From positions 1 through 28,919 of IMG/VR virus record IMGVR_UViG_3300025889_000691: a stretch of 28,919 bases of DNA; one strand, 5' to 3'. The position numbers were made by a program, and so were the translations under genes. This DNA comes from a virus. Shown here piece by piece: positions 2,959 to 28,919 of this stretch (position 1 is its first letter; each line of letters starts with the position of its first letter). The notes under the pieces were generated by a model. The model saw only the letters and a list, made by a program, of their open reading frames with translations. It had not been told where the DNA came from and ran no database searches.

Positions 2959-3263
2959 AAGCAAACAAACACACAAAATATTTGATCAATGCATTAGAGT
3001 ATGCTGACAACAAAACATACTCCTATGGTTGTCCCTACCTAGCACTAGCAGATGTGCTAGGGTATACAACCCCTTATAATATCCACCATCTACCACAGCG
3101 TTTTGATAGATTATCAATGCGTGAGATGCTTTTAACTAATGGGATAGGTAGGCATCAATCGCATAGAGTCTATGCTATGATAGAGGGTGGATATACATTG
3201 AGTGAGATAGCAGAAGAGATGAGAAACATCTATGACTACAGAGGAGTGATGAGAGTAGTATGA
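2955..3263 (+). CDS. Hypothetical protein with a possible helix-turn-helix
   Basis: This 102-aa protein is not assigned to a family. The last third, GYTLSEIAEEMRNIYDYRGVMR (about 78-99), has the spacing of a helix-turn-helix (x-T-L-S-E-I-A-E-E-M), suggesting DNA binding. The rest is helical with His/Tyr-rich turns. ATGA overlaps at both ends place it in the middle of the coupled operon. A virus-encoded regulator is plausible, but the HTH is judged by eye only. Confidence 0.6.
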   Translation: MKANKHTKYLINALEYADNKTYSYGCPYLALADVLGYTTPYNIHHLPQRFDRLSMREMLLTNGIGRHQSHRVYAMIEGGYTLSEIAEEMRNIYDYRGVMRVV

Positions 3264-3763
3264 ATATATTTGCTCTCCATGAATCCACAAGGGCATGTGC
3301 TCAAATGCATTGTGATAAGCATGTAGTAAAGATGATACTGGAATCAGGACAGATAATGTGTACTGTCCACCACAAGTTTCCAAATAAAAAATTGGAATAC
3401 ACAATACCATACAAACCAACACATGTTAATCATCCATGTGTGTTATGGACTCAATCATCATTGGGTAATTACATTTGGTTATACAATCTAACCAAACATC
3501 TCAATGATGAATACAGGCATAGATACAACAGGACATTCAACCATAAGACATGGGATGCTGTAAAGGATTTGCCTTACCCATCCATACCAACAACTGGTAT
3601 GACACCATGGGCTAGGGCTATGCCTGATGAGTATAAGATAGATACTCATGAGGATAGGAAACAGAATGTCATAGAGTCATACCGTAAGTACTACATACTT
3701 GGTAAGCAATCCCTACTCCACTATACCAATAGGGAGAGACCATACTGGATGGAGCAGGGCTGA
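3260..3763 (+). CDS. Conserved phage-type protein with HCDKHVVKM motif
   Basis: This 167-aa protein begins MNIFALHESTRACAQMHCDK and continues HVVKMILESGQIM, then has HVNHPCVLWTQSSLGNYIWL and AMPDEYK. I recall the same succession of motifs (N-terminal MNIF, HCDKHVVKM, NHPC.-W, AMPD.Y) from an uncharacterised protein widespread in T4-like and marine phages. The His/Cys/Asp cluster near residues 17-20 and the Trp/Tyr-rich middle suggest a nuclease- or glycosylase-like active site, but I know of no proven function. Its start overlaps the previous stop as ATGA. It is the last gene of this operon. Confidence 0.65.
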   Translation: MNIFALHESTRACAQMHCDKHVVKMILESGQIMCTVHHKFPNKKLEYTIPYKPTHVNHPCVLWTQSSLGNYIWLYNLTKHLNDEYRHRYNRTFNHKTWDAVKDLPYPSIPTTGMTPWARAMPDEYKIDTHEDRKQNVIESYRKYYILGKQSLLHYTNRERPYWMEQG

Positions 3764-5072: not shown

Positions 5073-5298
5073 AGTGAACAAAATAAAAAAATGTAATGTC
5101 GTGACAGGACATGATGAAAAAACAAAACAAAGTATAGTATGTACGAATGAAGCAATCGCTACATATAAATGTGTCATCAAAGTAGAAAATGATGGCAAAG
5201 AAATTGTCAGTGATGTTCATGTATGTGAACAACATAAGAGACACTTTCAAGACCAATTAAAGGAGCAAGAAGAATATGAAAGAAAAAAATACATTTAG
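5065..5298 (+). CDS. Small Cys/His zinc protein upstream of the AAA+ ATPase
   Basis: This 77-aa protein begins at GTG 5065, overlapping the previous stop by 8 bp; GTG 5074 is an alternative. Cysteines at KCNV, SIVCTNEA, YKCVIK and VHVCEQHKRH give a spaced C-C-C-CxxH set, as in small treble-clef fingers. The C-terminus is a charged helix (DQLKEQEEYERKK). Its last 23 bp overlap the start of the AAA+ gene. Function unknown. Confidence 0.6.
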   Translation: MIRVNKIKKCNVVTGHDEKTKQSIVCTNEAIATYKCVIKVENDGKEIVSDVHVCEQHKRHFQDQLKEQEEYERKKYI

Positions 5299-6184
5299 TG
5301 GAACTCCAACATCGCCAATAGACTTTGATCAATATGATCCAAAGAACTTGGTTGATTGGGGTACATACAAAGAAATAGGAGATGAGATGAAACTCCTTGA
5401 AGCAAACATCTATGGAGATGGTATGCCATATCTAATAGAGGGAGATAAAGGTCTAGGTAAAACCTTGATGGTTCATACAGTATGTAGAAAGAATGGATTC
5501 CCATTACTTGAATACAGTTGTTCAAATGGAACTAACAAGGGAGACTTGATTGGTAGATTACAAATCAATGACCATGGTTCTTTCTTTGAGTTAGGCATAC
5601 TTCCAACAGGATATGAAATAGCAAATCACTTTGGTATGTGTGTTGTATATCTTGATGAAATAAATTCAATGGATCATGAGGTAATGAAACTATTGAATAG
5701 ACCTACTGATAAAAGAAGATCAGTATATGCAAACGGTAAGGTATACAAACTCAACAAGGGATGTAAGTTGGTATTCGTAGCAACAATGAACCCAATCACT
5801 TATGCAGGAGTTAATTCTCTTACAGAAGATTTGAGAAGTAGATTCATTGGAGATATAATAACATACCCAACTTCCAAACAACTAGAGGAAATAATTGATT
5901 GGACAATCATACCAGAAGAAGAAGTAAAGAGACCACTCTTACAACTAGCACAGGAATCAAACGCCTTGAGAATTAAAGGAGATGTCGATTATGTGTTATC
6001 TCCAAGAGATATTGATCAACTATGTAGTTACTACAGAAGTTTATCAAAAGGAACAATGATGTCAGATGCAACCAAGATTCTCAAATATGCATTGAAACAA
6101 GTAGTGCTTGTCAAATATGCAGAGATTGAGGAGAGGGAACTAATGAAGTCAAGGATAACTGAAATCTTTGGGGTTGAACTCTAG
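5276..6184 (+). CDS. MoxR/CobS-type AAA+ ATPase
   Basis: This 302-aa AAA+ protein is of the dynein-related/MoxR/CobS class. Walker A is GDKGLGKT (56-63), Walker B VVYLDE (123-128), sensor 1 region ATMNP (169-173) and arginine finger LRSRF (186-190). Length and motif order match single-domain MoxR/CobS ATPases. Such enzymes remodel or assemble targets together with a VWA-domain partner, and that partner is the next gene, coupled by a TAGTG stop-start overlap. CobS-like genes have been reported in viruses of marine thaumarchaea. Nothing here shows a link to cobalt insertion, as no CobN subunit is present. An AAGGAG stretch lies before the ATG, but within the upstream gene. Confidence 0.85.
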   Translation: MKEKNTFSGTPTSPIDFDQYDPKNLVDWGTYKEIGDEMKLLEANIYGDGMPYLIEGDKGLGKTLMVHTVCRKNGFPLLEYSCSNGTNKGDLIGRLQINDHGSFFELGILPTGYEIANHFGMCVVYLDEINSMDHEVMKLLNRPTDKRRSVYANGKVYKLNKGCKLVFVATMNPITYAGVNSLTEDLRSRFIGDIITYPTSKQLEEIIDWTIIPEEEVKRPLLQLAQESNALRIKGDVDYVLSPRDIDQLCSYYRSLSKGTMMSDATKILKYALKQVVLVKYAEIEERELMKSRITEIFGVEL

Positions 6185-7860
6185 TGGCTAGAGATAGAGA
6201 AATACTATCAGATAAAGAGATGATGAGAAGTGTGTTAGATATTGTAGAATATCTAACTCAATCTCATATCACTCTTACAACCTATGAGGGAGATAACTAT
6301 GTGAAACTAGATGCTAAAAATAATTTTACAATGAATATAGCAAGTCCTGCTGTAAAGAACATTGATAAATATACTGCCTTTGCACATGAATGTGGACACA
6401 TACTAGGTCATAGTCCAATACAAATTGCTCAAGGATTAATTAAATCTTGGTGTACTGATGCAGATACATTTATGGCTAGAGTAAGATATGAAATGTACTG
6501 GAACTCTTTTAACATATTAGAAGATCAAAGGATTGAATATATTATTGGTAGAATATGGAGATTAAACAAACAAAGGTTTGAGAAAACAAGACAGAAGATA
6601 GGAATTACAATGACTACTGCTACCAATCCTGTCCAAGAATTATTATCAACTAGATTCTACAGAGAGGATTTAGTAAAGAGTAAAAGAAAAAAAGATATTA
6701 TATCTGCAATAAAAAATGTAGAGGGAACAGGAAGTAGAGGTGCTTTAAGAATATTAGGAATCATTAAACCTATACTAGATGAATGGTTTGATGAGCAAAA
6801 AAATGAGAAAGACATAAAGGGATTAAACAATATAGATAATCCTAATACGACAAGTCAAACAGATATGGCAGAAGTGCTAGTAAGTTCTTCAAAGATTAAA
6901 GAAACTAATAAAGAGGAACTAGATGAAGAAATAAAGAAAATACAATCAGAGATAGACAAATCATCTGATATTACAGAAGAAAAGAAAGACCTTGAAGCAC
7001 AGTTTGAATCCTTTGAAAAGAAACTAGCAGAGATAGAAAAGCCACAGATGAGAAGAGAGTTTATCAGCATACCAAGACAAGGATACGCAGAGAAGTATCA
7101 AAACTATGAACATATTGAGAAATCATTGAAAGGTTTATTGAGAAAAATAAACGAAAGATATGCTGAAAAGATTGACTACATTGGAGAAGAGGTAGACGTT
7201 GAAACATACGTTGAAAACAAGGCACAGAAAAAAGATGTAACAAGATCAATGCGAAATAAAAAAATGGATAAAGGTTTGTCAATAGTTCTTGCTATTGATT
7301 GCTCTGGTTCAATGTCAAAGTATGAAAGAATAAACAAAGCAAAGTCATTGGTCTATACAATATACAAAGCAGTTGAAAACAATCCAAGAGTAGATGTCAA
7401 GGCTATAATGTGGGCTTCAAGTGCAAGAGGTAAAGTAGGAATCACAGAGATAGACAGTATAAAGTCTATTGATAAGATAAGAATAGCAGATGGATATGTG
7501 CTTACCCCTACACATCTAGCATTGGAATATTCAGCAGATGCTTTGAACAAAATGAAAGGAAGAAAGAAACTTCTAATCATGATTACTGATGGTATACCAG
7601 AATACAAATCAAACAACTTTGCTATACCATTGGGAAATCTGATAAAAATGACAAAGAAATCACTTCAATATGCTAGGAGATTAGTACCAGATGTCGCAGT
7701 ATTTCTTGTTGGAATACAGGGAAATTATAGAGTTACACAGCCAAAAAAAGTAATGAAAGACATATTCGGCAACAGAGTTGTTGTATGTAATGACATGAAT
7801 AGTGCTGTCGAAAACGTTATTAAACAGATGAAACAAGTGATTGTGAGGTCATTGTATTGA
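6184..7860 (+). CDS. Metallopeptidase-like / VWA-domain protein (CobT/DUF2201-like)
   Basis: This 558-aa protein starts at GTG 6184, overlapping the ATPase stop. Residues 1-150 contain AFAHECGHILGH with HECGH at 68-72, a HExxH zincin motif, and NILEDQRIE (110-118), which resembles the conserved LEDxR segment of CobT and VWA-metallopeptidase proteins and may give the third ligand. Residues 220-350 are a Lys/Glu-rich coiled-coil linker. The C-terminal VWA domain has the MIDAS motif DCSGSM (372-377), Thr at 441-443 and ITDG (467-470). The pairing AAA+ plus VWA is the classic MoxR/VWA or CobS/CobT machine. The unusual part is an apparently intact peptidase site in a viral version. A role in protein maturation, virion assembly or host remodelling is inferred. 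Confidence 0.8.
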   Translation: MARDREILSDKEMMRSVLDIVEYLTQSHITLTTYEGDNYVKLDAKNNFTMNIASPAVKNIDKYTAFAHECGHILGHSPIQIAQGLIKSWCTDADTFMARVRYEMYWNSFNILEDQRIEYIIGRIWRLNKQRFEKTRQKIGITMTTATNPVQELLSTRFYREDLVKSKRKKDIISAIKNVEGTGSRGALRILGIIKPILDEWFDEQKNEKDIKGLNNIDNPNTTSQTDMAEVLVSSSKIKETNKEELDEEIKKIQSEIDKSSDITEEKKDLEAQFESFEKKLAEIEKPQMRREFISIPRQGYAEKYQNYEHIEKSLKGLLRKINERYAEKIDYIGEEVDVETYVENKAQKKDVTRSMRNKKMDKGLSIVLAIDCSGSMSKYERINKAKSLVYTIYKAVENNPRVDVKAIMWASSARGKVGITEIDSIKSIDKIRIADGYVLTPTHLALEYSADALNKMKGRKKLLIMITDGIPEYKSNNFAIPLGNLIKMTKKSLQYARRLVPDVAVFLVGIQGNYRVTQPKKVMKDIFGNRVVVCNDMNSAVENVIKQMKQVIVRSLY

Positions 7861-8375: not shown

Positions 8376-8555
8376 ATGTGCACAGGAAATTGTGATTTTT
8401 TTGAGAGGAAATCTAAGGATAGATTTCATTATTGTCAAGATTGTGGTAAACGTGTAGGAGAAAGTAATACTTATAAAGAGAAGCAATATGGTAGACTCAG
8501 ATGCTCATGTTGCAATGGTTTGGTAAGAACAAAATACATAGTGTACAAGGTATGA
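8376..8555 (+). CDS. 59-aa Cys-rich zinc-finger miniprotein
   Basis: ORF read directly from ATG 8376 to TGA 8553-8555. Cysteines fall at residues 2, 6, 20, 23, 43, 45 and 46, with CQDCGKR and CSCCNG as the clearest knuckles, a zinc-ribbon pattern with extra ligands. Its stop overlaps the start of the cyclotransferase-like gene as ATGA, which supports both. Unrecognised; likely a nucleic-acid- or protein-binding zinc domain. Confidence 0.55.
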   Translation: MCTGNCDFFERKSKDRFHYCQDCGKRVGESNTYKEKQYGRLRCSCCNGLVRTKYIVYKV

Positions 8556-8848
8556 ATGTTTTTGTTTATGGTACTCTTATGAGAGACGACATAAGAGATT
8601 CAATACTAGGAAAAATAACTTATTGGGAAGAAGATTCTTTAGATGGATTTACAAAGGAAATGCACCCAGATTTACCTTATCCATGTATATTTAATAAAAA
8701 AGATTCAACTGTATATGGTATAAGATTTAAAGCAGATGAAGAGGATCTAAAAAGACTCGATAGATATGAAACTGAATTTTATAAAAGAATAATTGTAAAA
8801 TTAAATAGTGGAGAAGAAAGTTTTGTTTACGTGGAAAACTTAGATTAA
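8552..8848 (+). CDS. Gamma-glutamylcyclotransferase-like (AIG2/GGCT) protein
   Basis: This 98-aa protein has the start fixed at ATG 8552 because family members begin with MxVFVYGTL; an upstream in-frame TTG is less likely. VYGTLM (5-10) is the substrate loop. LDRYETEFYKR (about 77-87) carries the Glu conserved in AIG2-like cyclotransferases. The fold cleaves gamma-glutamyl amides, releasing 5-oxoproline, as in GGCT or BtrG. In known amidoligase gene sets a cyclotransferase of this type removes or trims a gamma-glutamyl group. This protein could act on the product of the amidoligase at 359-1612, about 7 kb away. That link is inference. Confidence 0.75.
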   Translation: MNVFVYGTLMRDDIRDSILGKITYWEEDSLDGFTKEMHPDLPYPCIFNKKDSTVYGIRFKADEEDLKRLDRYETEFYKRIIVKLNSGEESFVYVENLD

Positions 8849-21454: not shown

Positions 21455-22843
21455 TTATCCGAATAATGCCTTTTGTAGCTTCTTAGTCATGTCCATTACA
21501 TGCCAACTGTCTCCACCTGCTACTGCTCTACATGCTAATACTAGACTATCTGGGTAATCATCATGTTCATCTGACCTAATCTTCATGATACCTGTATCAG
21601 TATATTCTCTTCTGAGATATGATAACTGATATACTAATTTGTTTACTTGTTTTAATTTGATTCTATGGTTCTCAAATAACATTCTAAGGTCTCCATACAT
21701 CTTGGCTTTCTCCTGTAATGAGAATATTACTCCCCTAACTGGAGAACCTTGTGATCTAGCCAAGTCTACAAGTCCACCACCCAAACCAGTTTCATCAACG
21801 AATACTGTTTCTATATGATACTTATCTATGTATTCTCTTATTCTTCCTGCTACTTGTACTACGTTAGATTGTGATTCATTTTCAACTTCTTCAACTGCAA
21901 CTACTTCATCACTGTCTACAGATACTATTGTGTATACTGTTTCATCTCTACCAGTTCTTGCAACATCAACTCCCATATAATATCTTGGTCTACCCTTTGG
22001 AGTATAATCTCCAACTGCTTCCATAAGTATTGAGTTTGGAAACAATGCATCACCAATATCTAGGAACTCTCCGTCAACTTCTTGTATGTATTCTTCTCTG
22101 GTAAGTCTTTTAATTTCTTCAATGTATGCAGGATCTTTTTGAATCAATGGGTTGTCAGTTGATTTTACATGGAACTGTGTCCACAATCCATCTGGGTTAG
22201 TAGACTTTGAGTTCATACATGCTTCATAGAAATAACCTGATTTGCTGAAAGGTGTTGATGTAAGCCATACTCTTGCTTGAGTTGCCATACCTGATGGTAG
22301 GAAAGCCTTGAGTATATCTGTCTTAATGAAAGAACATTCGTCAGCAATAATAACATGTGGAGAATAACCTCTAAGTCCAATACCAGTTTCACCAGTTGCC
22401 CTTGTAATTATTTTTGACATACCATTACCATCAAGGAAAGAAACCCACAATGCAGTTTGTGTATTCTTTATGACATATCCTTTTAGAAAATCATTATCCA
22501 TAACTAGACTTCTAATCTTATCAAACATGATTGTAGCCTGATTTTGTGTAGGTGCTGCTATAACTATGGTACATTCATTCTTTACTGTCTCTAATAATAA
22601 TGGTGCAAAGAAAGCAAAGTGTATAGTTTTAACTGCTGTTGATACTGTTTTACCTACCTGTCTACCACTACGATATACTATGAATCTATCTTTACAATCT
22701 ACGTATCTTTTGTTATAATCGAATACTTTATGATCAAGAAAGATTTCTGAGAACTTACTAGCAGATTGAGCACACTCTGCGATAGTATTTACAAAGTCTA
22801 ATCTCTCTTTAATCTGTTCGTTCGTTGTTCTCCCTTGTGTCAT
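21455..22843 (-). CDS. terL: Terminase large subunit
   Basis: This 462-aa packaging motor protein is of the head-tail virus type. The ATPase half has RSGRQVGKT (58-66, Walker A variant), VIIADE (164-169, Walker B) and LTSTPFSKSG (194-203, coupling motif). The nuclease half is RNase H-like with GVDVARTGRD (291-300, Asp293), VFVDETG (347-353, Asp350) and DDYPDS (428-433, Asp432). Length and motif order are normal and no truncation is visible. It hydrolyses ATP to translocate DNA into the prohead and cuts concatemers. Its start lies 35 bp inside the upstream gene, a common arrangement for TerS-TerL. Confidence 0.93.
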   Translation of the reverse strand: MTQGRTTNEQIKERLDFVNTIAECAQSASKFSEIFLDHKVFDYNKRYVDCKDRFIVYRSGRQVGKTVSTAVKTIHFAFFAPLLLETVKNECTIVIAAPTQNQATIMFDKIRSLVMDNDFLKGYVIKNTQTALWVSFLDGNGMSKIITRATGETGIGLRGYSPHVIIADECSFIKTDILKAFLPSGMATQARVWLTSTPFSKSGYFYEACMNSKSTNPDGLWTQFHVKSTDNPLIQKDPAYIEEIKRLTREEYIQEVDGEFLDIGDALFPNSILMEAVGDYTPKGRPRYYMGVDVARTGRDETVYTIVSVDSDEVVAVEEVENESQSNVVQVAGRIREYIDKYHIETVFVDETGLGGGLVDLARSQGSPVRGVIFSLQEKAKMYGDLRMLFENHRIKLKQVNKLVYQLSYLRREYTDTGIMKIRSDEHDDYPDSLVLACRAVAGGDSWHVMDMTKKLQKALFG

Positions 22844-23360
22844 TTACAGCCCTCTGAGCCTTTATCTGTCTAAATATACTTGATATGTCTCCAGATTTAC
22901 CGAACTCTGTTTTTTCAGTTACGACTATCTTATTGTTTAAATCGTTAATAGATTTGATTATATTAAGTAAAGTATTGATTTCAGATTTGGTATTCCTATC
23001 AGGTACATTACCGTCAAACTTAGCCTGAGTCAAAGCCATCAATACATTTTCCATGGATAGTTTTGCTATTAGGTCTAACATATCTTTAATATCATCTGGG
23101 TTTCTAGTATCTAATGTATTAAGTAATTTTACAAAATCATCTCTAATTGCACATATTGCACCCTTTTCATACTTTGGACATTTACCATTACCACCCTCTT
23201 CTATACTACGGTATATGCATTGATCACACATGGCAGGTAAGTTTGCATCTTTAAAATGCTTTGCAGAGTTGAAAGGAGATATTGTTTTTCTCTTATCTTC
23301 TTCTGCAACAAAGTTACCATTTACAGATTTAATCTGAAAAATTTCCTTATCATCAACCAT
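22809..23360 (-). CDS. Probable terminase small subunit
   Basis: This 183-aa protein is proposed as TerS from its position directly upstream of and overlapping terL. It has a Cys cluster, CDQCIYRSIEEGGNGKCPKY then AICAIRDD (45-74), which could bind zinc or be a wide treble clef. Two long helices follow (DIKDMLDLIAKLSMENVLMAL; INTLLNIIKSINDLNNKIV), consistent with the oligomerisation helices of small terminases. The C-terminus is basic (FRQIKAQRAVNDTRENN). The Cys region is not typical of bacterial-phage TerS. Assignment rests mainly on context. Confidence 0.55.
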   Translation of the reverse strand: MVDDKEIFQIKSVNGNFVAEEDKRKTISPFNSAKHFKDANLPAMCDQCIYRSIEEGGNGKCPKYEKGAICAIRDDFVKLLNTLDTRNPDDIKDMLDLIAKLSMENVLMALTQAKFDGNVPDRNTKSEINTLLNIIKSINDLNNKIVVTEKTEFGKSGDISSIFRQIKAQRAVNDTRENNERTD

Positions 23361-23381
23361 TATATAACAATTATTATATAA

Positions 23382-24149
23382 CTAGTACTTAAAGTTTTTC
23401 TCGTATATATTCATTGATTTACACATTGGCATAAATAATAATGCAAATGGTATTTTCATTAATGAATAGTATTCAGAATTAACAACATCTTCTTCTTTAA
23501 CATTTATTTTTTCCATATACTCTTTATATTTTTGACAGTTGTATCTTAACATTGGAATCATACCTTTACCTTTTTCTCCAAAGAACATTGATGTAGTTGA
23601 ATTATTATTCCATACTTCTGTTTTCTTTGACATAGCAGCAGAGATCCATGCACTAGTATCTAAACTTTCAAACTTAGTACCACGCCCAATGTAACTACCT
23701 TTTGCTAATCCATGAAATTTTAATGGTGGTAGTTTTCTCATTTGATCTTCAGTTTCAAGTTTACCTTTAATTTCTCCTAGGCAAATATAATCATCTTTGT
23801 TAGGTTTAAGCAAACTTAGATGATTAAGATAGTTCTCCTGTAATACAGGTAAAGTCCAATCTATACCCATCTCTCTTTCTTTTTTATACCACTTCATTGT
23901 TTCAGCCATATTATAGAATACATCAAACTGAGTAGCATGGTCATAGTTTTCCCTGTGTTTCTTTAACAGTTCATGATACCTATCTGCTTCAGTTCCTATA
24001 CCTGCAACTACAAATATGCTTTCAAATTTATCTCTAAATTTAGTGATATTTGCGTATGAGTATTTAAATGATAACATAACATTCTTAACACCACACTCTG
24101 CAAGTGTTTCTAAGTGGGCTTTGTTGTTAGCGTTAAAGTATATCTTCAT
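23382..24149 (-). CDS. TGT/DpdA-like base-exchange enzyme candidate
   Basis: The start is placed at ATG 24149 (MKIYFNANNKAH), leaving a 17-bp overlap with the nuclease gene; an upstream Met at 24206 is less likely. The 255-aa chain reads like a TIM barrel: MKIYFNANN, CGVKNVMLSFKY, SIFVVAGIGT, FDVFYNMAE, GIDWTLPVLQ, YICLGEIKG, LKFHGLAKGS and FESLDTSAWISAA. The last two, H-G-L-x-x-x-S and [F/Y]-x-S-x-D-[ST]-[ST]-x-W, are what I associate with tRNA-guanine transglycosylase relatives and phage DpdA, which swap guanine for a 7-deazaguanine in DNA. Host archaea make preQ0 for archaeosine, so substrate could come from the host. No deazaguanine synthesis gene is in the window. The family call is plausible, not proven. 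Confidence 0.5.
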   Translation of the reverse strand: MKIYFNANNKAHLETLAECGVKNVMLSFKYSYANITKFRDKFESIFVVAGIGTEADRYHELLKKHRENYDHATQFDVFYNMAETMKWYKKEREMGIDWTLPVLQENYLNHLSLLKPNKDDYICLGEIKGKLETEDQMRKLPPLKFHGLAKGSYIGRGTKFESLDTSAWISAAMSKKTEVWNNNSTTSMFFGEKGKGMIPMLRYNCQKYKEYMEKINVKEEDVVNSEYYSLMKIPFALLFMPMCKSMNIYEKNFKY

Positions 24150-24906
24150 CCCATGTCTCTCTATTATCTTCGAAGCACATGGTTGCGTATGGACAGAACC
24201 CATCACATAGGTAGTTTTTTACCCTAGGTGGTAAAGTTTTATTTGTAAGCGAGTCTTTAATCTCTCTTGATTTTACTATCATATCCTCTAATGTTTCTTC
24301 TATTGGTGCTAGTTTGAATGGTAGACATGATGGTTTATCTCTTGTTTCTTTATCTACTGCATTTGATATGTATATTACACAGCCATAATCTGCATCAATA
24401 TCATAGCATTTTTTAAGTAATACTCTATATCTATTGATTTGGTCTACATGTGATTCACTTGGTTTGGATGTAGACTTACTGAAATATGCAATAGATCCAG
24501 TTGTTTTCTTATCACAGATAACATATTTACCGTCTATCTCTACCACATCATCAATAGAACCATAGATAATATCCAAATGTCTAGGATCATCTACAGGTAT
24601 TTTTAGTGCTTCTTCCCTTGTTAATGCCTCATCTCTAACATAGTCGTATGCTAGAAACATCTCATGGAACTCTGGTTTTGCAACCATAGATGCTGAGTGT
24701 ATTGCTTGACCAAAGTATAATGATCTCATATCTTCAGTATTCATACCACTTGCAGGTAAAGTCTTTTTATATATTACATTACGCATACATGGTTTAATAA
24801 TATCTGATACATGTATTACTCCTAACCTTTCTGTTTTCATGGCTTCCACTTGTGCTTTTCTAAAAGCAAAATAAACTTCATTTGATATATCTTGTAATTT
24901 TAACAT
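24133..24906 (-). CDS. Cas4/RecB-like PD-(D/E)XK nuclease with Fe-S cysteines
   Basis: This 257-aa protein has conserved Cys40 in SDIIKPCMRN, FGQAIH (65-70), GSIDDVVEI (116-124, Asp119), VICDKKTTG (129-137, catalytic D-x-K), QINRY (156-160) and C-terminal CDGFCPYATMC (234-244). Four Cys (40, 234, 238, 244) reproduce the 4Fe-4S pattern of Cas4 and AddB-type exonucleases. No cas1, cas2 or repeat array is near, so this is a viral recombination or end-processing nuclease, as seen in other archaeal viruses. ATAAAAACG (24928-24937) is the likely TATA box, 26 bp upstream. It is co-transcribed with the TGT-like gene. Confidence 0.82.
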   Translation of the reverse strand: MLKLQDISNEVYFAFRKAQVEAMKTERLGVIHVSDIIKPCMRNVIYKKTLPASGMNTEDMRSLYFGQAIHSASMVAKPEFHEMFLAYDYVRDEALTREEALKIPVDDPRHLDIIYGSIDDVVEIDGKYVICDKKTTGSIAYFSKSTSKPSESHVDQINRYRVLLKKCYDIDADYGCVIYISNAVDKETRDKPSCLPFKLAPIEETLEDMIVKSREIKDSLTNKTLPPRVKNYLCDGFCPYATMCFEDNRETWDEDIL

Positions 24907-24939
24907 AATATTTATATGATGTTCTGTAATAAAAACGTT
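24907..24939. promoter_or_regulatory. Interleaved divergent promoters
   Basis: ATATTTATA (24908-24916) is centred 27 bp upstream of the plus-strand ATG at 24940. AATAAAAACG (24928-24937) is centred about 26 bp upstream of the minus-strand ATG at 24906. Each TATA box overlaps the other gene's transcription start, so the two directions should compete. Confidence 0.5.
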
Positions 24940-25644
24940 ATGCCTAGCATGGTTTGTAGAGCAGTTGTTTGGAATACTGGTAAGGCAGAATTTGCATCTG
25001 TTTCAACTGATGCTAATAACATTATTCAAGCTGATAAAAACTTTGGATTCTTAAAGCCAACTAACGGAGTATTGACTTTTAGTATTAGTAATAGAGATGG
25101 AGAAATTACTGATAAAGCAGTTGACAGGGCTGTTAAATTTGCGTTAAAAGAATGGAGTATTTTTGTCCCAATTCAATTTAAGAAAGTACCGAAAGACGGA
25201 GATATTAGAATAGAATTTAGATCAGAAGATGAAGATGAGATATTAAATAGTAACACTCTTGCCTATATGTATTATCCATTAGGTGGTAAAACTGATGGAC
25301 AATGTGTAATTAATACTAGATTTTATTGGACTAATCATGGTAATGGAGTTGATATGAATAAGATTGATCCAGTTCATTATAGACCTGACAGTGGAACTAA
25401 AGGTACTTCATGGGATTTAGACCAAGTATTAAGACATGAGTTTGGTCATGGTATATTTGGATTACCACATGATCCAAACACAAATCATATAATGAGTAGT
25501 AATTATAGTAAAATGAAAGAACATTTAAGTGAAGTAGATATATTAAGAGCACAGGCTAAAGCAGGTACTAGAGTTTTAAATGCTAATATGGTAAAACGTC
25601 TATTAACATGGATTACTAAAGCCAGTGATAGAGATTATAACTAG
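24940..25644 (+). CDS. Matrixin-like zinc metalloprotease
   Basis: ATG 24940 (MPSMVCRAVVWN) fits the TATA spacing; an earlier in-frame ATG at 24919 lies too close to the TATA box. The 234-aa protein has the metzincin site VLRHEFGHGIFGLPHD (163-178): HExxHxxGxxH followed by Asp, and a Met-turn IMSSNY (184-189). The upstream part, AVDRAVKFALKEWSIFVPIQF, matches the helix and strand that open matrixin catalytic domains. No clear signal peptide or prodomain is present, so it is probably virion-borne or intracellular. It could digest host surface protein during entry or exit, or process capsid proteins. Confidence 0.85.
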   Translation: MPSMVCRAVVWNTGKAEFASVSTDANNIIQADKNFGFLKPTNGVLTFSISNRDGEITDKAVDRAVKFALKEWSIFVPIQFKKVPKDGDIRIEFRSEDEDEILNSNTLAYMYYPLGGKTDGQCVINTRFYWTNHGNGVDMNKIDPVHYRPDSGTKGTSWDLDQVLRHEFGHGIFGLPHDPNTNHIMSSNYSKMKEHLSEVDILRAQAKAGTRVLNANMVKRLLTWITKASDRDYN

Positions 25645-25784: not shown

Positions 25785-26137
25785 TAGTATGATTCCTCTA
25801 ATACAAATTTAAATGATTTTGTTTGTTCTGTCATTTGACCACTTGAATTTTTAAGTTCAATCTCACTTTCCCATACTCCTGCATTGGCTATTGCTGTATC
25901 ACTATCTGTTAATTGATATGAGACTATTCCATTAGGTCTATTATCATAAGTAATATCTCCATTTATAATAAGAGTTCCATCTGGTTTCCATACTTTCCAT
26001 TTACCAGTTGCATAAGTAGTATCATCATTTAAGTTCTTTACAGTACCATCATCATCTTTAATGGTCATAGTGAGTACTGATCTAGCACCTGCTTTAACAC
26101 GAAATTCTACTGCATTACCTACCATATAACTACTCAT
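25784..26137 (-). CDS. BppU-N-like baseplate/tail domain protein
   Basis: This 117-aa protein is a single beta-sandwich. FRVKAGARSVLTMTIKDDDG, then KWKVWKPDGTLIINGDITY, GIVSYQLTDSDTAIANAGVW and ESEIELKNSSG follow the layout of the phage BppU N-terminal domain (xGDx...dG...kPDG...G.v.Y.L...D....G.y..eiel). In BppU this domain attaches receptor-binding proteins to the tail. The start overlaps the stop of the long repeat protein as ATGA, so the two are made together and may assemble together. Confidence 0.65.
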   Translation of the reverse strand: MSSYMVGNAVEFRVKAGARSVLTMTIKDDDGTVKNLNDDTTYATGKWKVWKPDGTLIINGDITYDNRPNGIVSYQLTDSDTAIANAGVWESEIELKNSSGQMTEQTKSFKFVLEESY

Positions 26138-28919
26138 TGTTTCTCTATGTCCTCTCTTTCTTTATAAAGATTTATGTCCTTGGTATTATCATTTGTGCTT
26201 GTTGATTTAGTCTTATCATTTACCTCTGCATCTTTATCAGAATCTTCTACTTCTGCTGATTTAGAAGAATCTTCTACTTCTGCTGATTTAGAAGTATCAT
26301 TGACTTTCAAGAAAGCACTGTTTATATAGGATTTTAATGATTTGTCTCTTAATGCTTCCTCTATTTCTTTGCTTATATCGTGTAATTCTAATACCAATGT
26401 TCTTGCATTTGTACCGATAGTATTTGATACTCTGTGGAAACCGTATCTTACCAATACGATAAATGCTTCTGCTATGAATATTGATTCTATTATTGATAAT
26501 ATTCTTCCTCTTATGTATAATGCAAATGATGCTATTGCTATAGATTCTTCTACAACTCTGATGATTGTTCTTTGTAATCCTCTGAATGTAGCGATGGTTA
26601 TTACATCTGCAACTATGGCTAGTCTTGATCTGAACAATGTAACAGTTTCTACTAGTTGTATTGTATCTCCAACTATTCTTATTATATCTCTTGATAGTCC
26701 TCTGAATGTGTCTACTGATACTATATCTGATACTGCTCTTGCAAGTGCTCTTACTCTTATGATTGATTCAGTTATTCCAACGATTTCAGATACAATTCTA
26801 TTGAGTAATCTGACTCTAATTACTGCTTCTACTAATAATACAGAGTCGCTTGAGACTCTAATTATATTTCTAGCGAGTCCTCTGAATGTATCGATTGCTA
26901 CTATATCTGATACGATTCTTACCAATGTTCTGATTCTTATTATTGATTCTAATACTTCTAATGTGTCTACAACTGCTCTTACCAATGTTCTTATTCTTAC
27001 GATTGTTTCTACAGTTGATACTACATCTGATAGTATTCTTGTTAGTTCTCTTGCTCTTGATACAGTTTCAACTAATTCTACAATCTCAGATACAACTCTT
27101 GCTAAGAATCTAACTCTTACAACTGCTTCAGATAATGCTATCGAGTCTTGTAGGACTCTGATTATATTTCTAGCGAGTCCTCTGAAAGTGTCTATAGATA
27201 CTGTATCTGCAACTGCTCTTGCCAATGCTCTGACTCTTACTATTGATTCTACGATTGATACAACATCTGATACAATTCTTGTCAATACTCTTACTCTTAC
27301 GATTGACTCTAGTATACCTGTAATCTCTGTTTGTATTCTTATCAATGTTCTAACTCTTACTATTGATTCTAATGCTTGAACTGATTCTGATACTGCTCTA
27401 ACTATGTTTCTTGCAGTTCCTCTGAACGTATCAATGCTTACTGTATCTAATACAATTCTTACCAATGGTCTTATTCTTAGAACTGATTCAGATATTGACA
27501 CAATTTCAGATACAATTCTATTCAATACTCTAACTCTTACGATTGATTCTAATGCATTAACTGAATCTGATACAACTCTGATAAGTGTGAATACTCTAAA
27601 TGCTGATTCTGTAATGGATACAATGTCAGATATTATTCTGTTGATTAGTCTAACTCTTACAACTGATTCAACTACAGATACAATCTCAGATAATACTCTA
27701 GTAATTGTTCTAACTCTTACTATGGATTCAGTTACAGATACTAATTCTGATAGCACCCTTACCAATTCTCTAGCAGTACCTCTGAATGTATCGATTGATA
27801 CAGTTTCAGATATGATTTTAATTAGTGTAAATACCTTTATTGTTAATTCTGTAATTGATACAACTTCAGATACAATTCTATTTAGAACTCTAACTCTTAC
27901 TAATGATTCTGCTAATGAGATACTGTCAGATATGATTCTAACTATTTGTCTAGCAGTTCCTCTGAATGTGTCAATAGATACTGTATCTACTAATACTCTG
28001 ATCAATGATCTTATTCTTAATACTGATTCTGTTAGTTCTACTGAATCTACAACTGCTCTTACAAGTGTTCTTATTCTTAATACTGATTCTGTGATAGATA
28101 CAATATCTGAGACAATTCTGTTCAGTACTCTTATTCTTACTATTGATTCTGTGGATAGTATTGATTCTGATAATACTCTTGATAGTATTCTTACTCTGGA
28201 TACTGTTTCTATTATTGATACTATGTCTACTGTGATTCTGTTTAATACTCTTACTCTTAATACTGACTCTGTTAATACTATTGAGTTTATGATTACTCTG
28301 GATAGTATTCTTACTCTGGATACTAATTCTACTATTGATACTGAGTTTACTATTGCTCTTACCAACACTCTTGTTCTTACGATTGATTCTGTTAATGCTA
28401 TAGTATCGGATATGATTCTTACAATGTTTCTTGCTGTACCTCTGAATGTGTCTATTGAAACGGTATCTGTTAGTATTCTTACCAGTGTTCTGATTCTTAC
28501 GATTGACTCGGTTGCAGATACAATCTCTGATAACACTCTTGATAATGCTCTTACTCTTATTACTGATTCAGCAAGTGATACTGTATCTACTATTGCTCTG
28601 ACAATGTTTCTTGCAGTACCTCTGAATGTATCTATGGATATAGAGTCTACTATTACTCTTACTAATGGTCTTGCTCTTAGAACTGATTCTGCTACATTTA
28701 CAATATCTGAGACAATTCTATTGAGTATTCTTATTCTTACCAATGATTCTGCTAATCCAACTACATCACTGATAATTCTAACAATGTTTCTAGCAGTTCC
28801 TCTAAAGGTATCTATTGATACAATAGCATTGTATACTCTTACTAATGCTCTTACTCTTAATACAGATTCAGTTAATGTAATACTATCTGCAATTATTCTT
28901 ACAATATCTCTGGATAATC
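26134..28919 (-). CDS. Giant 20-residue-repeat protein, 5' end outside the window
   Basis: The reading frame is open from the window edge to TGA 26134-26136, giving 927 visible residues; the true start lies beyond 28919, and the TTG at 28741-28743 is only an internal codon. Most of it is an uninterrupted 20-residue repeat with consensus near RIVSDIVSITESVLRVRVLN. A second type (SIDTFRGTARNIVR) recurs ten times at irregular spacing. About 41 units are visible. The C-terminal 130 residues leave the repeat: a hydrophobic helix region, then charged 9-residue repeats (EVEDSSKSA), ending EREDIEKQ. No signal peptide is visible because the N-terminus is missing. Hydrophobic residues in a fixed rhythm suggest a fibrous solenoid or rod. 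The ATGA coupling to a BppU-like gene suggests a tail fibre, adhesin or rod. Function is inferred. Confidence 0.82.
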   Translation of the reverse strand, partial: LSRDIVRIIADSITLTESVLRVRALVRVYNAIVSIDTFRGTARNIVRIISDVVGLAESLVRIRILNRIVSDIVNVAESVLRARPLVRVIVDSISIDTFRGTARNIVRAIVDTVSLAESVIRVRALSRVLSEIVSATESIVRIRTLVRILTDTVSIDTFRGTARNIVRIISDTIALTESIVRTRVLVRAIVNSVSIVELVSRVRILSRVIINSIVLTESVLRVRVLNRITVDIVSIIETVSRVRILSRVLSESILSTESIVRIRVLNRIVSDIVSITESVLRIRTLVRAVVDSVELTESVLRIRSLIRVLVDTVSIDTFRGTARQIVRIISDSISLAESLVRVRVLNRIVSEVVSITELTIKVFTLIKIISETVSIDTFRGTARELVRVLSELVSVTESIVRVRTITRVLSEIVSVVESVVRVRLINRIISDIVSITESAFRVFTLIRVVSDSVNALESIVRVRVLNRIVSEIVSISESVLRIRPLVRIVLDTVSIDTFRGTARNIVRAVSESVQALESIVRVRTLIRIQTEITGILESIVRVRVLTRIVSDVVSIVESIVRVRALARAVADTVSIDTFRGLARNIIRVLQDSIALSEAVVRVRFLARVVSEIVELVETVSRARELTRILSDVVSTVETIVRIRTLVRAVVDTLEVLESIIRIRTLVRIVSDIVAIDTFRGLARNIIRVSSDSVLLVEAVIRVRLLNRIVSEIVGITESIIRVRALARAVSDIVSVDTFRGLSRDIIRIVGDTIQLVETVTLFRSRLAIVADVITIATFRGLQRTIIRVVEESIAIASFALYIRGRILSIIESIFIAEAFIVLVRYGFHRVSNTIGTNARTLVLELHDISKEIEEALRDKSLKSYINSAFLKVNDTSKSAEVEDSSKSAEVEDSDKDAEVNDKTKSTSTNDNTKDINLYKEREDIEKQ
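26240..26293 (-). repeat. Perfect 27-bp tandem repeat (two copies)
   Basis: 26240-26266 and 26267-26293 are identical. They encode consecutive copies of a 9-residue acidic/Ser/Lys unit in the C-terminal tail of the repeat protein, with diverged copies on either side. Confidence 0.85.
26461..28919 (-). repeat. About 41 tandem 60-bp units, no phase slip
   Basis: The same 60-bp phase is held from 26461 to the window end without a single inserted or lost base. Units of the FRG type begin at 26581, 26701, 26881, 27181, 27421, 27781, 27961, 28441, 28621 and 28801, separated by 2, 3, 5, 4, 6, 3, 8, 3 and 3 units. Individual units differ at many synonymous and some amino-acid positions, so this is an old, selected array rather than a fresh expansion. 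Confidence 0.9.

Follow-up and report, generated by a model that had tools for sequence, protein, structure and literature searches.

DpdA proteins of phages and tRNA-guanine transglycosylases (TGT) are the closest described systems to the gene studied here. According to PMC6165067, Asp280 is the nucleophile of the Z. mobilis TGT and Asp102 activates, that is deprotonates, the incoming base, while the eukaryotic QTRT2, described there as noncatalytic, has a Cys at the place of Asp102 and a Glu at that of Asp280. The zinc site of TGT consists of three Cys and one His (PMC3660597). Among the phage proteins, CAjan DpdA has been tested genetically, phage 9g DpdA has the conserved His of the family at position 196, and Vibrio phage nt-1 encodes a DpdA2 (PMC6884629). 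HRTV-29, a tailed archaeal virus, is a published precedent for DpdA occurring alone, and in such singleton-DpdA viruses viral synthesis genes are thought, in the account of PMC8651126, to be unneeded. DpdA-like genes are usually taken as signs of DNA modification, and the openly licensed PMC papers that we searched describe neither a DpdA or TGT relative encoded within a packaging operon nor one joined in a single protein to a small-terminase-like domain.

Here we describe such a relative in the packaging operon of an uncultured tailed virus. It belongs to the TGT/DpdA superfamily, keeps the nucleophile position of phage DpdA, lacks the acid/base Asp of the DSG motif, and lies between the genes for a Cas4-like nuclease and a small-terminase-like protein with four invariant cysteines (the Cys4 protein).

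The locus and its host

The source is the virus record IMGVR_UViG_3300025889_000691, all 28,919 bases of which are referred to below as the window. The TGT-like gene is an open reading frame of 255 codons on the minus strand, running from an ATG at 24149 to a stop at 23382. An alternative GTG start lies 57 nt upstream in the same frame; the ATG is favoured because the relatives begin with the same M-K-[IF]-Y-F-N. The features of the operon are collected in Table 1.

The presence of MCM helicase and RadA genes in the window, together with a TerL (large terminase) whose best-ranked named relative is that of the haloarchaeal tailed virus HGTV-1 (32% identity), suggests that the host is probably an archaeon, as an earlier note on this DNA had supposed. 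Scans of viral contigs gave relatives of the TGT-like protein down to 33-42% identity, and none was found in a scan of cellular contigs. A scan for promoters and terminators yielded no signal above shuffles.

Table 1. Features of the packaging operon, in window coordinates
Feature	Position	Strand	Evidence
Cas4-like PD-(D/E)XK nuclease	24133..24906	minus	phrog_1706 E 3.3e-16; PADLOC Cas4 E 1.1e-8; PF12705 at cut-off
TGT/DpdA-superfamily gene	23382..24149	minus	255 aa; relatives, profile comparison and controls, structure
V-V-A-G, codons 47-50 (place of the DSG motif of DpdA/TGT)	24000..24011	minus	V48 aligned with D63 of CAjan DpdA, profile alignment
HGLAKGS, codons 146-152	23694..23714	minus	H146 aligned with H187 of CAjan DpdA
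SLDTSAW, codons 162-168, D164 at the nucleophile position	23646..23666	minus	D164 aligned with D206 of CAjan DpdA
Cys4 protein (CxxC...C...C), 183 aa, small-terminase-like	22809..23360	minus	phrog_887, phrog_6902, hhalign
C45, C48, C61, C70 of the Cys4 protein (codons 45-70)	23151..23228	minus	invariant in 33/33 loci
TerL	21455..22843	minus	PF03237 E 4.4e-15; PF17289 E 1.1e-8; phrog_2 E 2.4e-45

A member of the TGT/DpdA superfamily

The TGT/DpdA-like barrel proposed in the earlier note is borne out by a structural model, by its comparison with solved structures using VIA-align and by controlled profile comparison. An AlphaFold2 model computed from an alignment of 45 sequences, near-duplicates omitted, reached a pLDDT of 91.8 and a pTM of 0.88; a single-sequence model (pLDDT 40) was set aside. 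All 50 matches listed by VIA-align are TGT-family chains, with Z scores of 13.8-14.6, and include Z. mobilis TGT 1p0e (Z 14.6, 234 residues, 3.2 A) and the DpdA 7ui4, labelled 'DNA preQ0 insertase' (Z 14.6, 239 of the 255 model residues, rmsd 3.4 A). Foldseek ranked other TIM barrels first when run on the PDB alone; on BFVD, ranks 3, 5 and 10 went to queuine transferases of phages and rank 15 to a protein of Vibrio phage nt-1 that may or may not be its DpdA2.

Profile comparison with hhalign connects the protein to phage DpdA. Against six phage DpdA-like proteins, alignments of 24 and 45 relatives scored 73.0 and 97.7, respectively, where the maxima over 100 column shuffles per alignment were 24.4 and 20.7 and reversed profiles scored 15-16 (15.0 for the 45-sequence alignment). 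Against 12 phage DpdA, with fused proteins (see below) excluded, the score was 81.4 (E 3e-11), and one distant relative, L053, matches phrog_887, 'queuine tRNA-ribosyltransferase', over its residues 1-208 (E 3.4e-6). Searched singly, the TGT-like protein matches nothing significantly in Pfam, PHROGs or NCBIfam, and CAjan DpdA is likewise without a Pfam match. The profile search against TGT and DpdA that had been suggested as a check thus gave a divided answer, with matches to phage DpdA profiles and none to PF01702, a profile absent from the window (0/1) and recovered in 14/14 control genomes.

The tie to TGT proper rests on structure, as sequence-profile comparison with a bacterial TGT set (E. 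coli TGT and up to 13 relatives) was not significant for our 45-sequence alignment (prob 0.3); nor was it for the 12 phage DpdA (prob 2.4). Sequence searches of solved structures with the single protein and with three alignments returned no TGT, the few rows, at E of at least 0.014, being taken as chance, and the sole residue tie to E. coli TGT, D89 with D63, comes from a short, non-significant alignment. Taken together, membership of the TGT/DpdA superfamily is well supported.

Active-site residues

Both motifs singled out in the earlier note, H-G-L-x-x-x-S and S-L-D-T-S-A-W, are present, at residues 146-152 and 162-168. The final Ser of the former is not conserved, and HGLAKG is the conserved form. 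H146 is invariant in 63/63 ORFs of a first set of relatives and in 61/61 of a second, as is W168 in the same 63 and 61 ORFs; K150 is invariant in the 63 ORFs of the first set. We equate H187 of CAjan DpdA, to which H146 aligns, with position 196 of 9g DpdA.

The two catalytic positions have fared differently. Counting distinct relatives by exact sequence over both, overlapping sets, 60 of 63 have Asp at the nucleophile position 164 and the other three have Asn; the two Asn-bearing relatives within the 45-row alignment retain the invariant residues of the family. The acid/base (DSG) position 48 is Val in the window and Asp in 0/63 distinct relatives (also in 0/63 ORFs of the first set), whereas both Asp and the His are kept in 12/12 phage DpdA. 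Accordingly, of what had been named as decisive, a TGT-type barrel with its catalytic Asp residues, the barrel and, in 60/63 relatives, the nucleophile are present and the DSG Asp is missing from 63/63, and the proposal of a working 7-deazaguanine insertase that protects the viral DNA is left unsupported. In the model, one strand (residues 44-48) ends at V48 and another (162-164) at D164, which is where residues at a barrel mouth would lie; the equation of D164 with Asp280 of TGT rests on the DpdA motif and this strand-end position, not on an overlay.

Several further residues are conserved. N6, N8, N9, Q74, G125, H146, K150, S162 and W168 are invariant in 45/45 aligned relatives, down to 33% identity. 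D76, which we take to be the place of a base-binding Asp of TGT, is Asp in 61/63 ORFs of the first set and in 49/61 of the second. The only cysteines that follow D164 are C205 and C243, with a spacing unlike that of the TGT zinc site, presumably CxCxxC...H.

The packaging operon

The genes are transcribed in the order Cas4-like nuclease, TGT-like protein, Cys4 protein, TerL. The position beside packaging genes and the Cas4-like partner were read correctly in the earlier note: the Cys4 and TerL genes lie downstream, and the nuclease gene, identified by its phrog_1706 and PADLOC matches, is adjacent on the other side. The operon is that of a large clade of tailed viruses, and its full order on one strand recurs in 56 of 61 loci. 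The other five comprise three without a detected Cas4-like gene, one without TerL, and L055, which has two copies; this count omits L056, which is on the same contig as L053, and the re-fetched L070, L071 and L073-L079. The two packaging-operon copies of L055 are inverted, which may be a real duplication or an assembly artefact, and both TGT-like copies have Asn at the nucleophile position. In L060, a small ORF (7135-7437) between the TGT-like and Cys4 genes matches HNH weakly and below cut-off (E 0.022).

The Cys4 gene directly precedes TerL. Its product matches phrog_887 at positions 372-490 of 509 (E 5.7e-9), that is in the C-terminal part, because some phages fuse TGT and Cys4 in one protein. 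It also matches phrog_6902, 'terminase small subunit', a weak match (E 0.0039) to a family whose name is an annotation and not a functional test. PokyPuppy gp8 matches a Cys4 HMM with E 4.8e-5 (in a 5-protein set), and HGTV-1 gp3, annotated as the small terminase (TerS), has no match to the Cys4 profile (prob 3.1). The Cas4-like nuclease has four conserved cysteines (C40, C234, C238 and C244; 33 loci).

In the 33 loci in which all four genes are full length (L055 and truncated ORFs left out), mean pairwise identity is 0.64 for the Cas4-like nuclease, 0.57 for the TGT-like protein, 0.65 for the Cys4 protein and 0.69 for TerL, and the pairwise identities of the TGT-like protein and TerL are correlated (0.867). 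The dN/dS of the TGT-like gene is 0.016-0.158 in pairs with dS under 2.5; the gene is under purifying selection. Genes for QueC, QueD/PTPS and FolE occur in 0/19 long related contigs, in agreement with the earlier suggestion that the virus has no synthesis genes of its own.

Loci without the TGT-like gene

A search by way of the Cys4 gene gave 103 confirmed loci, 80 of which were kept; 61 have the TGT-like gene, 18 lack it and one is cut at a contig edge. In the 18 (of 79 not edge-cut), the Cas4-like gene is directly followed by Cys4 and TerL. A TGT profile run over the whole of these contigs (two reach 63 and 65 kb) detected no copy in any of the 18, while 6/6 controls were positive. The TGT-like gene is therefore not required for packaging as such, and we ruled out that it is an obligatory packaging component. 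A tree was built from 60 non-identical TerL sequences of at least 400 aa, with L055 and L264 left out. The 12 that come from TGT-less loci fall into two groups, each nested within sequences from TGT-bearing loci, so that absence amounts to two changes, which under the midpoint root we read as losses. Overall, the gene looks old, selected and co-inherited, yet losable. In one TGT-less clade (L266, L268, L280 and L285), a short conserved Cys/His-rich peptide ending in KCxCLCHKIVGE takes the place of the TGT-like gene.

The Cys4 domain in other viruses

TGT and Cys4 domains occur as one protein in Streptomyces BRock (gp36) and GiJojo (gp181) and in about 80 viral contigs (110 confirmed relatives, 80 kept; counts over 81 rows include BRock twice, L081 being BRock at 100% identity). 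The window's Cys4 protein scores 64.7 against these fused proteins with hhalign, where the shuffle maximum is 23.2, and all fused proteins in the five contigs scanned belong to phrog_887. In the fused family, the nucleophile (W-4) position is Ser, Ala or Thr in 81/81 rows, and the DSG position is Glu in 51, Asp in 19, His in 7, Ser in 3 and a gap in 1.

The next gene downstream of the fused genes is a B12-type ribonucleotide reductase in 10/10 scanned. That fused genes adjoin TerL, which we considered, is unsupported: a TerL profile, which may be too narrow, found none around them in 80 loci (0/80), and in BRock TerL is about 70 kb from the fused gene. The annotation of BRock lists no TerS between 16,000 and 112,523, which is compatible with the fused protein being its TerS but is no evidence for it.

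In Gordonia phages, the Cys4 domain follows a different N-terminus directly before TerL, in proteins that often carry the annotation terminase small subunit. We also considered that the N-terminus of PokyPuppy gp8 is a degenerate TGT, which hhalign did not support (prob 0.3). A TGT protein with both Asp residues kept stands beside a Cys4 protein in BS162P1, a Bacteroides phage, and in the fecal phage MT835482, indicating that a Cys4 partner is compatible with catalysis; MT835482 also carries QueC and a radical-SAM gene. The TGT/DpdA gene of MT835482 (L067 3794-5992) is interrupted at its nucleophile motif by a LAGLIDADG-containing intein.

Other genes of the window

Apart from the packaging operon, the window encodes a matrixin-type metalloprotease (24916-25644; PF00413 E 7.3e-19), divergent from the operon, and, on the minus strand, a very long protein (26134-28917) whose coding sequence spans diverged repeats of about 60 bases; it runs off the end of the record, and its repeat units lie around 'SIDTFRGTARNIVR'. 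The stretch 359-2436 contains a gene resembling glutamine amidotransferases (1612-2436), with a PF13522 match below cut-off (E 4.6e-4), and next to it one for a 417-aa protein that is amidoligase-like by eye but unsupported by Pfam. Together with an AIG2-like gamma-glutamyl cyclotransferase (8501-8848; PF06094 E 8e-14), these possibly form a peptide-tagging or cell-surface set. There are also a pair of AAA (PF07728) and VWA (PF00092) genes (5276-7860), like MoxR/VWA systems, and a pyrimidine dimer DNA glycosylase-like gene (3260-3763; PF03013 E 3.6e-6).

Possible functions of the TGT-like protein

Tentatively, and at somewhat less than an even chance, we favour the reading that the TGT-like protein is a DpdA relative with a rewired function, handling viral DNA together with the Cys4 packaging protein, and probably not a standard preQ0 insertase. 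This reading best fits three features: the nucleophile and other conserved residues are kept, the second Asp is gone, and a small-terminase-like domain is repeatedly the partner. The barrel would still hold a base of viral DNA, presumably guanine, would not perform the normal exchange of guanine for 7-deazaguanine, and could, jointly with the Cys4 protein, act on viral DNA in connection with packaging; it might, for example, flip out and recognize a base at or near the packaging start. It would be an accessory and not an obligatory part of the machinery. The Asp nucleophile in 60/63 distinct relatives counts against this reading, as mere base binding needs none, and the ribonucleotide reductase neighbour of the fused genes and the distant TerL of BRock argue against a simple packaging story. 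A more specific version, in which one guanine is read or covalently marked by the DpdA-derived barrel and the site is then taken over by the Cys4 protein, TerL and the Cas4-like nuclease, seems unlikely. The main rival, which we consider somewhat unlikely, is a working DpdA that replaces guanine with preQ0 from the host as a shield against restriction, some other residue serving as acid/base. The closest recognizable relatives are indeed phage DpdA, the nucleophile Asp (60/63 distinct relatives), the His (63/63 ORFs) and D76 (61/63 ORFs) are kept, an accessory pattern of presence and absence would suit an anti-restriction gene, and HRTV-29 sets a precedent for a lone DpdA (PMC8651126). However, the DSG Asp, kept in 12/12 phage DpdA, is found in 0/63 distinct relatives, and D76 is not Asp in 12/61 ORFs of the second set; the lost Asp is the residue that, in the TGT mechanism given in PMC6165067, deprotonates the incoming base, and QTRT2 is presented there as noncatalytic.

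The loss of the release residue alongside a kept nucleophile would also suit a half-reaction, in which D164 attacks the guanosine sugar and expels guanine, and the intermediate either is hydrolysed, making the protein a guanine glycosylase, or persists and marks the DNA for packaging. An intermediate that forms and is not released has been argued for QTRT2 (PMC6165067), and the neighbouring Cas4-like nuclease might process such sites. We nevertheless judge this distinctly improbable: Asn replaces the nucleophile in 3/63 distinct relatives, two of which, in the 45-row alignment, keep the invariant residues, and protonation of the leaving group may need the lost Asp. That the protein is a pseudoenzyme with a structural or protein-binding role, such as holding the Cys4 protein or the Cas4-like nuclease, and no base binding, is improbable as well. 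The family described here and its fused sister family have each lost a different catalytic Asp, and noncatalytic QTRT2 is a precedent (PMC6165067), but the invariance of nine polar or glycine residues in 45/45 relatives suggests, at the level of sequence, a ligand site that has been kept.

If the TGT-Cys4 pair does function in packaging, a base-handling fold would have been recruited to viral genome recognition, and the pair would be a candidate for the means by which DNA is recognized by the terminases of such uncultured tailed viruses, which are probably archaeal. Should preQ0 still be inserted, the set of residues required for the reaction would need revision. The label 'queuine tRNA-ribosyltransferase' would mislead both for the split family, which has lost the DSG Asp, and for the fused family, which has lost the nucleophile.

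Comparison with known systems

The phage DpdA proteins (Escherichia CAjan, Pseudomonas Iggy, Mycobacterium Bipper and others; phrog_887/phrog_7068) share with the TGT-like protein the same domain and the HGxx and SxD[ST]xxW motifs, with profile matches of E 3e-11 to 3e-13. The TGT-like protein differs from them in lacking the DSG Asp and, at 255 aa, is shorter than most; it is also shorter than the DpdA of structure 7ui4, to which it has 9% sequence identity. Phage DpdA genes sit with FolE/QueD, whereas the TGT-like gene sits with those for the Cas4-like nuclease, the Cys4 protein and TerL.

With the tRNA-guanine transglycosylases (PF01702; Z. mobilis, archaeal and others), the protein has the fold in common (Z 13.8-14.6) but neither a PF01702 match nor the Cys-rich zinc site after the nucleophile. 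Eukaryotic QTRT2 is likewise of TGT fold with the Asp102 position replaced, as described in PMC6165067; in QTRT2, unlike the TGT-like protein, the nucleophile is replaced too (by Glu), and its setting is tRNA modification, alongside a catalytic TGT partner. The fused proteins typified by BRock gp36 and GiJojo gp181, which correspond to full-length phrog_887, contain the same two domains, in the same order, as the window's TGT-like and Cys4 genes. They differ in being one polypeptide, in having lost the nucleophile Asp while an acidic DSG residue is present in 70/81 rows, and in that, where examined, their genes are not adjacent to TerL as in the operon of the window.
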